IMG/VR virus record: IMGVR_UViG_3300022752_000266
Location: 1-31,077 of that record
Reading direction: 5' to 3' (one strand)
Length of the DNA: 31,077 bases
DNA from: a virus
A program made the position numbers and the translations under genes. The notes under the pieces are model-generated. The model made no database searches and was not told the origin of the DNA. It worked only from the letters and a program-made list of their open reading frames with translations. Shown here in pieces: positions 20,915-28,217 of the stretch (position 1 is the stretch's first letter; the number at the start of each line of letters is the position of its first letter).

Positions 20915-21194
20915 CTCGCATAAATTGTTTGCGTTCTTCTCTGGTTAGTCCACCCCAAATTCCGAATGGTTCATCTGTTTCTATCGCATACATTCGGCAT
21001 TGGTCTATTATTGGACATTCAGCGCATAGGCTTTTAGCGTATCTAGTATCTTCTGCGGCTATTGCCTGGTTTTTGTGTTCTGGAAAGAATAGGTCTGGTG
21101 CGTTTTGGCAGGGAACTTGCCCTTCTTTTAGCACGAGTTCGTGTAATTCAAATAATTTTTGTTGATTTGTTTGCATTTGTCGGTGGGTAGGCAT
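20877..21194 (-). CDS. whiB: WhiB-family iron-sulfur transcription regulator
   Basis: A 105-residue regulator and the only convincing minus-strand gene. The four cluster-binding cysteines are Cys29, Cys57, Cys60 and Cys66 (C-x2-C-x5-C in CAECPIIDQC). They are followed by the beta-turn GIWGG (78-82) and the basic segment LTREERKQF, all WhiB hallmarks. WhiB proteins bind a 4Fe-4S cluster and the primary sigma factor, and are restricted to Actinobacteria and their phages, so this fixes the host phylum. ATG 21194 sits about seven bases from a promoter -10 element and lacks a Shine-Dalgarno sequence, so it is probably leaderless. A second ATG (21176) is possible. Phage copies can repress host whiB genes or exclude other phages. 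Confidence 0.93.
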   Translation of the reverse strand: MPTHRQMQTNQQKLFELHELVLKEGQVPCQNAPDLFFPEHKNQAIAAEDTRYAKSLCAECPIIDQCRMYAIETDEPFGIWGGLTREERKQFMRVISSRKLPLPFQ

Positions 21195-21199
21195 AAGAT
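21171..21199 (+). promoter_or_regulatory. Candidate early promoter for the recombination/replication operon
   Basis: TTGCAT (21171-21176) and TAAGAT (21194-21199) are 17 bases apart. The -35 lies inside the first codons of whiB, and the -10 abuts the whiB -10 on the other strand. It would drive 21243 onward. The match to consensus is moderate. Confidence 0.45.
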
Positions 21200-21200
21200 A

Positions 21201-21229
21201 ACCATACTGACAAATCTACGAAATGTAAA
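21201..21229 (-). promoter_or_regulatory. Promoter of whiB, probably leaderless
   Basis: Reading the minus strand, TTTACA (21229-21224) and TATGGT (21206-21201) are separated by exactly 17 bases. Transcription would begin near the A of ATG 21194, so the mRNA would lack a leader, a common actinobacterial arrangement. Confidence 0.65.
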
Positions 21230-21242
21230 GGAGAAAGGGATT

Positions 21243-22124
21243 ATGTCTAAATTAGAACATCCGTTGTTTGGTAAGGCTGTGCTTATTGGGGACTTTGAGA
21301 ATCAAAGTGCTGAGTGGCATGAGTTGCGTAGTAATGGTATTGGTGGCTCTCAAGTTGGAACTATTCTTGGTTTGAACCAATGGGAGTCTGCCTATACTTT
21401 GTGGGCGAAGTTAAGTGGGAAGATTCCAGAGTCTTTTGAGCAGAATGAAAAAATGTTTTGGGGGACTGTTCTTGAGCCTGTTATTCGTGATGAGTGGGCT
21501 AAACAGAATCCTGCCTACAAGATTTGGTTGACTGGAACTTGGGCTGATGATTACCGTCACGCCAATCCTGACGGTATTCTGCAACTCAATGACCCTATAA
21601 CTGGTGAAGTTGAGTTTGGTTTGCTGGAGATTAAGACTGCTGGTTATCGTTGGGATGAAGTGCCACCACAGTATGTGGCTCAATGTCAATGGTATATGCA
21701 TTTGCTTGGCTTAAAGTGGTGCAAACTTGTTGTTTTGTTTCAAGGCAATAATTTGGTTACTTATGATTTGGATTATGACCAGGAGTTTTCTGAACTTATG
21801 GTGAAGCGTGTGCAGGATTTTTGGGATGGTGTCCAGTCTGATTATGCGCCTAATTGGGATGGTTCTGAGTCTACTTATCAAACGGTTCGAGCTATGCATC
21901 CTGACATTGTGGAAGATGAGATTGAGTTGGGTTCATTTGGTATGCATTTGTTGTTGAAGCAAGCCGAGTTGGAGTCTGCCCAAGAGTCGTTGAATGAAAT
22001 TAAGAGCAGAGTTCTTGACTTTATGGGTAAAGCAAAGTATGGTCTTGTAAATGGAAAGGTTGTTGCTACTCGTTCAGCTCGTTCTGGTGGCACACCATAT
22101 TTGACTATCTCTAAGAAAGGTTAA
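21243..22124 (+). CDS. YqaJ/lambda-exonuclease-type recombination nuclease
   Basis: A 293-residue PD-(D/E)XK nuclease expected to resect double-strand DNA ends 5' to 3' for phage recombination. ATG 21243 follows AAAGGAGAAAGGG; the longer in-frame upstream extension would overlap whiB and lacks support. Family motifs: GIGGSQVGTILGLNQWESAY (about residues 31-50), an upstream acidic site GTVLEPVIRDEW, NPDGIL, then the catalytic LLEIKTA with Glu and Lys, followed by PPQYVAQCQWYMHLLG. The C-terminal 70 residues are helical. It is the first rightward gene of the early operon and is followed within 200 bases by a putative annealing protein, as in Red-like systems. Confidence 0.9.
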   Translation: MSKLEHPLFGKAVLIGDFENQSAEWHELRSNGIGGSQVGTILGLNQWESAYTLWAKLSGKIPESFEQNEKMFWGTVLEPVIRDEWAKQNPAYKIWLTGTWADDYRHANPDGILQLNDPITGEVEFGLLEIKTAGYRWDEVPPQYVAQCQWYMHLLGLKWCKLVVLFQGNNLVTYDLDYDQEFSELMVKRVQDFWDGVQSDYAPNWDGSESTYQTVRAMHPDIVEDEIELGSFGMHLLLKQAELESAQESLNEIKSRVLDFMGKAKYGLVNGKVVATRSARSGGTPYLTISKKG

Positions 22125-23734: not shown

Positions 23735-23790
23735 TGGTTATGAACCTACGCAAAAAAGGCTTTGTAAGGCTCGTAGGGGGCTTGAAATGA
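23734..23790 (+). CDS. 18-codon bridging ORF before the replication initiator
   Basis: A basic 18-residue ORF (MVMNLRKKGFVRLVGGLK) begins in a TAATG overlap with the upstream stop and ends in an ATGA overlap with the initiator start at 23787. It exactly spans the gap, so ribosomes could pass from the upstream gene to the initiator without release. AGAAGGG sits just before it. It may be a translational coupling leader rather than a functional peptide. Confidence 0.4.
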   Translation: MVMNLRKKGFVRLVGGLK

Positions 23791-24566
23791 GCGTAGAGAT
23801 GATTTCACTTGTTTTGAACCATTCTCGCTCTGAAGGGCGGGCTAAGGTCGTTTTGATTGGTATTGCTAATCATCATGGCGATAATGGTGCGTGGCCTAGT
23901 ATTGCTACTTTGGCTAAATACGCTAATTCTTCAGAAAGAAGTGTCAAGCGGGATATCAAGTATTTGCAGGAACTTGGTGAGTTGGTTGTTGAACCGCAGG
24001 GTGGTGAAGGTAAGAGCCAATACAAGACGAATAAGTATTGGATTTCGATTTCAGGGGTGACAGATGGTGCAATCAGGGGTGACAGAGTGGGTAAGTCAGG
24101 GGTGACTATATTGGCACACGAAACATCAATAGAACCATATATAACCATATATGCTCAATTTGAAGAATTTTGGAATGTTTATCCGAGAAAGGTCTCTAAG
24201 CGAGCTGCTTTGAAAGCGTTTGAGAGTGCTTTGGCTAGAAGTAGTTTTGATGAGATTTTGGCTGGTGCTATTCGGTTTGGTAATGACCGTAATTTGCCTG
24301 AGCCTGAGTTTATTCCGCATCCGACTACTTGGTTGAATGGCGATAGGTGGTTTGATGGTCCTTTGCCTGAGAGAAAGAAAACTAGAGAAGAGTTGCAGGC
24401 TGAATGGGATTTGGCGGAGCAGGAGCGTAAGGCTAAAGCTGCTGAAGCGCAGAAAGAGCGGGAGCGAATTTATGATGAGCAGATGGCTAAGGTTCAGGCA
24501 GCTCCACCAAAGTTTTGCGAACATGACAAAATCGTGTGGAATTGTCGGCTTTGTAAAAGCGTTTGA
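23787..24566 (+). CDS. Replication initiator with winged helix and in-gene origin
   Basis: A 259-residue protein. Residues 1-88 form a winged-helix domain: VVLIGIANHHGDNGAWPSIA, TLAKYANSSERSVKRDIKYL (recognition helix region) and a wing ending in KTNKYWISI. Residues about 123-190 (YAQFEEFWNVYPRKVSKRAA, LKAFESALAR, HPTTWLNGDRWF) match the C-terminal module of phage replication proteins of the lambda O or DnaD-like class. The tail is charged, then ends with Cys and His (FCEHDKIVWNCRLCKSV), a possible zinc site. Between the domains, codons 89-122 carry three DNA iterons and a tandem AT-rich repeat, like lambda ori inside gene O. No helicase or polymerase gene is in the window, so host enzymes are probably recruited. 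Confidence 0.8.
   Translation: MSVEMISLVLNHSRSEGRAKVVLIGIANHHGDNGAWPSIATLAKYANSSERSVKRDIKYLQELGELVVEPQGGEGKSQYKTNKYWISISGVTDGAIRGDRVGKSGVTILAHETSIEPYITIYAQFEEFWNVYPRKVSKRAALKAFESALARSSFDEILAGAIRFGNDRNLPEPEFIPHPTTWLNGDRWFDGPLPERKKTREELQAEWDLAEQERKAKAAEAQKERERIYDEQMAKVQAAPPKFCEHDKIVWNCRLCKSV
24051..24107 (+). repeat. Three origin iterons (TCAGGGGTGAC) inside the initiator gene
   Basis: Copies begin at 24051, 24073 and 24096, spaced 22 and 23 bases, about two helical turns. Copies 1 and 2 share 14 bases (TCAGGGGTGACAGA); copy 3 shares the first 11. Copy 2 lies in a different reading frame from 1 and 3, so the repeat is kept at DNA level, not protein level. Each has TCA/TGA inverted arms around GGGG. 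Confidence 0.8.
24133..24152 (+). repeat. Tandem AACCATATAT in AT-rich candidate unwinding element
   Basis: Two exact copies of AACCATATAT lie head to tail, 25 bases downstream of the iterons and within an AT-rich stretch. Next to the iterons this resembles the AT-rich melting region of lambda-type origins. Confidence 0.7.
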
Positions 24567-24582
24567 GTTATAGGATTGGGTT

Positions 24583-24858
24583 GTGGATGAGAACAAGGTT
24601 ATTTGTTTCCAATGCGGTTATTCGTGGGTTGTTTCTCCTGATAAGCGTGAGCGGACTGATTTGCTTTGTGTTTCTTGTCGTGCTAAACCCGCTAAGGTTC
24701 TTCAGTATGGGAACCTTAAATGTATTCCGCATCAGGGAGATTATGATGATGACGGAATTACACCAATGTCTGATGGGACTGCTGTCCTGCCAGGTAAAAG
24801 AATATGCAATCATGCCGATTGTGTAAATCCAAAACATATAGAAAAGAAAGAAGGGTAA
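24583..24858 (+). CDS. Zinc-binding, HNH-like small protein
   Basis: A 91-residue protein starting at GTG 24583. The N-terminal half has a four-cysteine zinc ribbon (Cys8 and Cys11 in CFQC, Cys29 and Cys32 in CVSC). The C-terminal half ends in CNHADCVNPKHIEKKEG, whose C-x(n)-CxNPxH arrangement is like the closing segment of HNH_3-type nucleases, with an upstream His (CIPHQGDYDDDG). Catalytic status is unclear. It follows the replication initiator and precedes the SSB-like gene, so a DNA-binding role in replication or recombination is likely. Several zinc proteins cluster in this region. Confidence 0.6.
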   Translation: MDENKVICFQCGYSWVVSPDKRERTDLLCVSCRAKPAKVLQYGNLKCIPHQGDYDDDGITPMSDGTAVLPGKRICNHADCVNPKHIEKKEG

Positions 24859-26849: not shown

Positions 26850-27066
26850 AGATTTGAATATACCAGGCAAGGTATTTTCCTGTAGAGTTAAAAGCATAAA
26901 GAATGATTTATCGGATGCTGATGCCAAGATATTTGAAGAAGCTGTGATGAATCCTAGTTGGCAGTTGACGGTGCTATCACGAGAGTTAAAGAAGCGAAAC
27001 ATAAACATTAGTGATAACAGTATGCGGAGACATAGATTGAAGGCTTGCTCATGTTGGAAAATTTAG
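26833..27066 (+). CDS. Small helix-turn-helix-like protein
   Basis: A 77-residue protein (ATG 26833, or ATG 26842). The C-terminal half (PSWQLTVLSRELKKRNINIS, then DNSMRRHRLKAC) has the form of a short DNA-binding helix-turn-helix: a helix, a turn around Asn-Ile-Asn, then a basic recognition helix with RRHR. It is followed by CSCWKI. Similar ORFs sit directly before metallophosphoesterase genes in actinophages. It may regulate the local operon or bind phage DNA. It overlaps the next gene by 16 bases. Confidence 0.6.
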   Translation: MAKMLEDLNIPGKVFSCRVKSIKNDLSDADAKIFEEAVMNPSWQLTVLSRELKKRNINISDNSMRRHRLKACSCWKI

Positions 27067-28217
27067 CTACTCCTGCACCTAAAATAAATCCACCTTCTGG
27101 TTGGAATCCAGCAGTTGAGTTTGATGGAACTGAAGGTGAAGCAATCTTGCCACCTGTTCAGGATGATGAAAAGCCTGATTTTGACCAATTTTTGGTTGAT
27201 GCTGGTTTTGACCCTGAATTGATTGAGATTGTTGGTGAACCTAGAACTTCTCGCTGGCAGGTTGCTAGACCGTTTCCGCTTGAACCTATGTGGCTAACTT
27301 CCTATAAGTTTCGATTTAGGAAGCGTAATGCTGTAGTTGATTTGCCTTTGTTGTATTCGCAAGCCAAGAAAACTAAAAAGATTGAACCTAAGACTTCAGT
27401 TTCTGGTAAGGCTTTGGTTGTGTTGTGGTCGGATTTACAGGTAGGTAAGGCTGACCATAGGGGCGGAACTGAAGAATTTTTGCAGCGTGTGGAAGAGAAA
27501 AAGAAAGCTCTTATTGCGAAATGTAGGGAAGTAAAACCTGAAAAGATTGTATTTTGTGATGTTGGCGATACTATCGAGAATTTTGGTAATGCCGCTAATT
27601 TGATGCAGTTAAGAACAAATACGCTAAGTATTATGCAACAGGTTGACCTTGCTACTACTCTAGCGTGGGATGTTTTGAAGGAACTTTGTAAGTTTGCTCC
27701 TGTTTCTTATCTTTCGGTTGGTAGTAATCATTGTCAATGGCGTGTATCTAAACAGCGTGTGGGTAATACTTTGGATGATTGGGGTATTCATATTGGTAGG
27801 ACTTTGGCTCGGTTGAGTAATGAAGTTGGTTTGCCTATCAAGTTTTTTGAACCGCAACCTAATGATGAGAGTTTGGCTTACGACATTTTCGGGGATACTA
27901 AACATATTTTGGGGTTGTGGCATGGACATCAAAGTTCCCGACCTGACCAAGTTCCTACTTGGTGGCGGCAACAGGCTTTTGGTAAGCAACCTGTTCACGC
28001 TGCAACTATCGGTGTGAGCGGGCATTTTCATCATTTACGGGTTCAGGAACTTGGTTCTACACCATCTGGTTCTAGCAGGTTTTGGATTCAAGCCGCTACT
28101 TTAGATAATGGTAGTAATTGGTTTAGGCATACTGCTGGTGAAGATAGCCAACCTGGTTTGGTTTGTTTTGCTGTTGAAAAGGGAAAGGATTTTACTGGGA
28201 CTGTCTGGAAGTTGTAA
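27051..28217 (+). CDS. Calcineurin-like metallophosphoesterase
   Basis: A 388-residue enzyme, ATG 27051 with GAAGG upstream. After a Pro-rich, likely flexible N-terminus (about 80 residues), it shows the five phosphoesterase blocks: SDLQVGKADH (Asp128, with Gln replacing the usual His), GDTIEN (Asp173), GSNHCQW (Asn226, His227), HGHQ (His291, His293) and GHFHH (His325, His327). These bind two metal ions. Such phage proteins are thought to be DNA exonucleases or repair phosphatases of the Mre11/SbcD class. The Gln in block one is known in some relatives. It is followed directly by a small zinc-like protein and a DNA methyltransferase. Confidence 0.85.
   Translation: MLENLATPAPKINPPSGWNPAVEFDGTEGEAILPPVQDDEKPDFDQFLVDAGFDPELIEIVGEPRTSRWQVARPFPLEPMWLTSYKFRFRKRNAVVDLPLLYSQAKKTKKIEPKTSVSGKALVVLWSDLQVGKADHRGGTEEFLQRVEEKKKALIAKCREVKPEKIVFCDVGDTIENFGNAANLMQLRTNTLSIMQQVDLATTLAWDVLKELCKFAPVSYLSVGSNHCQWRVSKQRVGNTLDDWGIHIGRTLARLSNEVGLPIKFFEPQPNDESLAYDIFGDTKHILGLWHGHQSSRPDQVPTWWRQQAFGKQPVHAATIGVSGHFHHLRVQELGSTPSGSSRFWIQAATLDNGSNWFRHTAGEDSQPGLVCFAVEKGKDFTGTVWKL

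Follow-up and report, generated by a model that had tools for sequence, protein, structure and literature searches.

A probable replication origin within the initiator gene of a 31-kb phage genome, with a tandem AACC array as a candidate second element

The window analyzed here, a complete IMG/VR virus record of 31,077 bases, very probably carries a theta-type replication origin at 24051-24170, in the linker-coding part of its initiator gene. On the evidence of sequence comparison and structure prediction, the N-domain of the initiator would bind the iterons, the array region would open, and the C-domain would bring in the host helicase. Most phage genomes, and those of uncultured phages above all, are without a mapped origin.

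The initiator gene and its iterons

The initiator gene (23787-24566, + strand) encodes 259 amino acids that match the PHROG_270 replication initiation protein profile (2.9e-38, residues 17-240, covering both the N- and C-domains), in agreement with the earlier note, which had called it a replication initiator. HTH_36 was the only family above cut-off in a Pfam scan of the protein, which gave no match to PF04492 (Phage_rep_O); relatives are present in Arthrobacter phages and in other phages. The winged-helix N-domain (residues 3-88; 23793-24050, + strand), delineated by an AlphaFold2 model and by its covariation with the iterons, has a pLDDT of 83-94 in most 10-residue blocks. Residues R51, K54, R55 and K58 of the predicted recognition helix (residues 50-63) share one face in the model, which forms the putative base-reading face. 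The linker that overlies the iterons (residues 92-116) was modeled with low confidence and is predicted to be disordered, and the C-domain is helical at residues 115-184, with a long helix at 200-238. The C-terminal part (24147-24563, + strand) consists of a PHROG_270/9327 (primosomal)-type helical domain, a coiled coil and a CxH...CxxC tail, and is the probable recruiter of the host helicase. The tail itself, CEH...CRLC at 24516-24563, forms the C-terminus of the initiator and possibly binds zinc; many relatives keep it with either of the two C-domain types described below. A PDB profile search with the initiator gave no significant match, and Foldseek against the PDB returned generic winged helices only, none at E <= 0.001. 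RepA_N plasmids have their origin inside rep, and we considered and rejected a kinship with them: there was no Pfam match past the generic HTH, and the structural likeness is that of a generic winged helix only.

Three identical copies of TCAGGGGTGAC lie on the + strand at 24051-24061, 24073-24083 and 24096-24106, exactly where they had been reported, with spacings of 22 and 23 bp. They are direct, asymmetric repeats, and no fourth exact copy occurs in the 31,077-nt window. The second copy had been said to be out of frame with the other two, and this is so: copies 1 and 3 read SGVT, while copy 2, in a shifted frame, reads IRGD. We recoded the initiator gene synonymously 3000 times with the phage's own codon usage, in which GGG accounts for 6.7% of Gly codons. 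Three GGGGTGAC copies appeared in none of the 3000 recodings (mean 0.06 per gene), nor did any of them reach the observed 14-nt repeat. Since synonymous recoding fails to yield them, the iterons are no by-product of the protein.

The pattern TCAGGGGTGAC-N8-16-TCAGGGGTGAC was found in 113 viral-contig stretches, which are non-independent samples, against a chance expectation that arithmetic places well below one for 22 fixed bases; by inspection, ∼106 of the 113 fall within the linker-coding part of an initiator-like ORF. Iteron spacing in the relatives is mostly 21, 22 or 23 bp, the copies read SGVT or RGD, and frames are mixed at the exact 11-mer in ∼16 loci. Clustered at 70% identity, the P0001-matching proteins of all loci form 31 groups, and these iterons are present in ∼20 of the groups. 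When proteins were retrieved by the N-domain motif alone, independently of the iterons, 14 of the 16 clusters carried the iteron word, one a concerted variant and one GGGGGG(A)TGAC-type repeats. The word is also present in HTH-type ORFs of bacterial genomes, all actinobacterial (Microbacterium testaceum StLB037, a Microbacterium MAG and Tersicoccus). Several matches of the iteron scan were set aside: those in L020, L040 and L044 are unrelated tandem repeats, those in L055, L083, L100 and L079 are probably the same, and many in bacterial-genome contigs are intergenic repeats without relation to initiators. The earlier proposal that the repeat is conserved as DNA is borne out by this comparison of related phages, in which the iterons are kept across two frames.

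The iterons also covary with the winged helix. The 84 distinct N-domains that accompany GGGGTGAC iterons invariably have R at position 51, and at position 54 they have K, Q or N without exception. In the relative L017, all four iteron copies, in both frames, are GGGGGGAC, and this change pairs with K54R; in L344, all four copies, again in both frames, are GGGGTGTC, and this change pairs with R51S. R58 is found in both proteins and in 0 of the 84; the covariation comprises these two events, and the L017 and L344 proteins each differ at a few other N-domain positions too. Identical iterons occur with a PHROG_270/9327 C-domain (the window, L069 and L087) and with a PHROG_1408/3992/1032 C-domain (L072, L064, L080, L105, L117, L043 and L122), and the iterons therefore follow the N-domain. 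As judged from these sequences, iterons and winged helix change in concert, the iterons at the level of DNA, and the winged helix probably reads them. The covariation of recognition helix and iteron amounts to a simple specificity code that is open to experiment.

The AACC array and its distribution

An AACC array with a period of ∼11 bp, conserved across families, lies at 24122-24152 on the + strand. It consists of a degenerate unit, AACATCAATAG (24122-24132), ahead of a pair of AACCATATAT units (24133-24142 and 24143-24152). The array starts 15 nt past the last iteron and the AACCATATAT pair 26 nt past it, so that units stand at +15/+26/+36-38. The earlier note had described a tandem repeat in an AT-rich stretch after the iterons; the pair is present, but it is only part of the array. 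The array strand has 11 C to 5 G, amid an otherwise G-rich strand. The least stable 50-mer of the gene (24121-24170), at the 99.7th percentile of the window, is the probable DNA unwinding element, and AT content is 72% in 75 nt vs 55% in the rest of the gene. Judged on the window alone, AACC enrichment is only suggestive (p=0.036 for the AACC count against synonymous recoding).

Across 24 representative initiators or families, 62 AACC were observed vs 24.0 expected under synonymous recoding, and in representative initiators AACC recurs downstream of the iterons at offsets of about +15, +26/27 and +36-39 nt, counted from the core of the last one. A blind scan for three copies of AACCATYA with gaps of 2-5 nt gave at least 120 matches, and 117 loci, on metagenomic contigs of uneven independence, were analyzed. 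Among these listed loci, 86 of 117 arrays lie mid-gene in an ORF of 180-420 aa and 93 spread their copies over two or more frames, vs 4 mid-gene and 0 mixed-frame among the 29 loci of a reversed-word control. The matches listed reduce to 65 non-redundant representatives (<60% identity), of which 47 match PHROG_270, 45 the O-like PHROG_391 and 43 HTH_36. Most of the array initiators among the matches listed carry iterons of their own directly upstream of the array, for example AAAGGGTGCAA (21-22 bp), CCCCACCCCCGCA (22 bp) and TGCAAATTCTGCAC (15 bp). Three AACCATYA copies were not found in the nine host genomes behind the iteron loci.

Named phages with arrays include Pseudomonas phages MD8, LESphi3, Itty13 and CF54a, Bordetella phage PHB09 and Serratia phage Parlo. 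In Arthrobacter phages AACCGTCC replaces AACCATYA, and Galaxy and Eesa carry the array in its GAACCGTCC form; the arrays of Decurro and Kels consist of two units. By the same test, the array is absent from lambda, KellEzio, Krakatau, TZGordon, Bumble, AbaSPB and mEp554. The HTH_36 cut-off was passed by all 12 array-bearing named phage initiators tested and by 3 of the 7 without an array; AbaSPB, KellEzio and mEp554 have HTH_36 initiators without a clear array.

Some arrays stand in other settings. Kels and Decurro (L167, L168), Arthrobacter phages with genomes of ∼15 kb, have the same N-domain type with a different, cysteine-rich C-terminus, and GGGGGGGTA repeats 25 bp apart accompany their two-unit arrays. 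In L180, L231 and L287, AACCATYA arrays lie beside a 44-bp tandem TCAATATGAACCAACTAGTTAGG repeat, mostly outside large ORFs, and possibly belong to another kind of origin. AACCATCARCC arrays with an 11 bp period, in ORFs reading NHQxTIxQPS and with few or no upstream iterons, are found in L192, L215, L237 and L288; these are possibly a variant from other host phyla.

We lean toward the view that phage origins have a second, broadly conserved element that had gone unrecognized, the AACCATYA array. In this view, the array is a set of helically phased sites that immediately follows the lineage-specific iterons of HTH_36-type initiator genes, in actinobacterial to proteobacterial phages, and at these sites a conserved initiator surface or a universal host factor would seize the opened strand. 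We found no earlier description of the AACCATYA array in the open-access literature, although subscription journals may hold one, and an AACC array common to initiators with different iterons looks new. If this view is correct, the array is a phage counterpart of the DnaA-trio or the plasmid 13-mer, and its sequence could serve to pinpoint the origins of phages that have not been cultured. Iterons vary by lineage and make difficult search targets; a common word repeated about every 11 bp offers a direct way of finding origins. The array also brings an old question within reach of experiment: which protein recognizes the melting region once the iterons have been bound.

A model for initiation and competing readings

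Our model has three steps. In the first, which is well supported, the N-terminal winged helix would bind the GGGGTGAC iterons, which lie on the same side of the double helix at intervals of two turns. In the second, for which position, stability and conservation speak, the complex of protein and DNA would open the adjacent AT-rich stretch. There the AACC array, which keeps register with the iterons, would act as a sequence-specific second site, its units most likely bound on one opened strand, much as plasmid Rep binds the 13-mers of its unwinding element. In the third, the C-terminal domain would deliver the replicative helicase of the host to the opened strand. We infer the recruitment of a host helicase because no phage helicase or loader is recognizable: as had been claimed, none was recognized among the window ORFs scanned, a set that covers not every small ORF. 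The ORFs neighboring the initiator have no PHROG match, and a very divergent P-like loader could escape.

Also as claimed earlier, the layout is lambda-like, with iterons and an AT-rich melting region, here phased mid-gene repeats and the 50-bp stretch of lowest stability in the gene. The GC skew that had been suggested as a check lends no support to an origin: it is positive throughout the window, with no switch at 24 kb, and is no evidence either way. DnaA boxes occur at chance level (8 near-matches vs 9.6 expected), a result that counts little because an origin of this type need not have them.

The array has a live, though unlikely, alternative role in the mRNA, as a Rho-binding site that limits transcription through the origin and not as an unwinding or loading element. 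Rho sites are C-rich and G-poor, with pyrimidine-C pairs ∼11-12 nt apart. The spacing of the array and its excess of C over G (11 to 5) resemble such sites, and Rho, a widespread host protein, would account for conservation across phyla. However, an eight-letter word in fixed registers to the iterons exceeds the known needs of Rho, and the array coincides with the gene's least stable DNA.

A role of the repeats as operators, by which the initiator would repress or time its own transcription while the origin lies elsewhere, we regard as improbable. The winged-helix N-domain does resemble transcription regulators, and binding-site evidence alone is no proof of origin function, but mid-gene, multi-copy, phased sites beside the least stable DNA, together with a fixed second array, fit an origin better, and the iterons of lambda, P22 and L occupy the same place (PMC8022706). 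The idea that the repeats are merely a low-complexity protein linker (SGVT / EPS motifs) with no DNA function was dropped as hardly tenable: they encode a predicted disordered linker, with 21-bp, in-frame spacing in many relatives, but mixed frames, concerted base changes across frames and the synonymous-recoding tests contradict it.

Comparison with known origins

It is instructive to set the proposed origin beside those of known replicons. The closest named genome found is that of Pontimonas phage phiPsal1, which is circular and 31,069 bp long, vs 31,077 bp; because length and map positions are nearly the same, the window record is probably a complete phage genome with a Microbacteriaceae-like host. 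The terminases are 58% identical, and an exonuclease-class gene and a methyltransferase 56-57%. The window encodes a RecE-like recombination exonuclease at 21159-22124 and, at 27045-28217, a second exonuclease-class protein (PHROG_284) that is 56% identical to the phiPsal1 gene. The phiPsal1 initiator, annotated RepO (23804-24610), occupies the same map position as that of the window and has the C-domain in common with it (40% over 98 aa), but the N-domain is replaced, palindromic TTCCACTGTGGA repeats 15 bp apart stand in place of the window iterons, and the AACC array is missing.

The Arthrobacter phages Galaxy, Renna12 and Eesa have PHROG_270-type initiators with ∼33-38% protein identity to that of the window. 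Their 22-bp GGGGTG-type iterons also fall in mixed frames, and a tandem 11-bp GAACCGTCC array occupies the position that the AACC array has in the window; unlike in the window, the iteron is GGGGTGAA or GGGGTGCC and the array is a GC-rich version. Their database records do not call the site an origin. In RK2-type plasmids, too, tandem repeats come after the iterons, within an AT-rich region where the DNA unwinds, but their Rep has two winged helices, the origin lies apart from the gene, and the repeat sequences are unrelated. In these iteron plasmids (RK2, TrfA), Rep binds one strand of the unwinding-region repeats, all of which are needed (PMC4081077).

Lambda, P22 and L have already been reported to carry origins with lineage-specific iterons inside their initiator genes (PMC8022706). 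For mycobacteriophages, it has been suggested that the origin lies in repA or beside it (PMC7157519). Gene 18 of P22 and gene 18 of phage L hold their own distinct repeats, like the window initiator gene, but the repeat sequences differ from those of the window, and the L replication module includes a DnaB-type helicase (PMC8022706). The earlier note, in calling the layout a notable parallel to lambda, overstated the case, for iterons inside the P22 and L initiator genes were known before (PMC8022706).

In lambda, as in the window, the initiator gene holds at its middle both an AT-rich tract and iterons spaced by about two turns; ssDNA from the AT-rich tract of lambda is itself bound by O (PMC7466680). 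The lambda iterons are inverted repeats that bind O dimers (PMC5043065), whereas those of the window are direct and asymmetric. Gene O is without an AACC array, and it is followed by the P loader, whereas none was recognized in the window. The protein scaffold had been thought different from that of lambda, and this holds in part: lambda O matches PF04492 (5.7e-36) whereas the window initiator matches HTH_36, the C-domains differ, and direct hhalign of the window initiator against lambda O gave no match, but the N-domain is a related winged helix, matching the O-like PHROG_678 and PHROG_345 as lambda O does. The window origin thus appears to be of a known kind, that of lambda, P22 and L, with the AACC array as its new feature.
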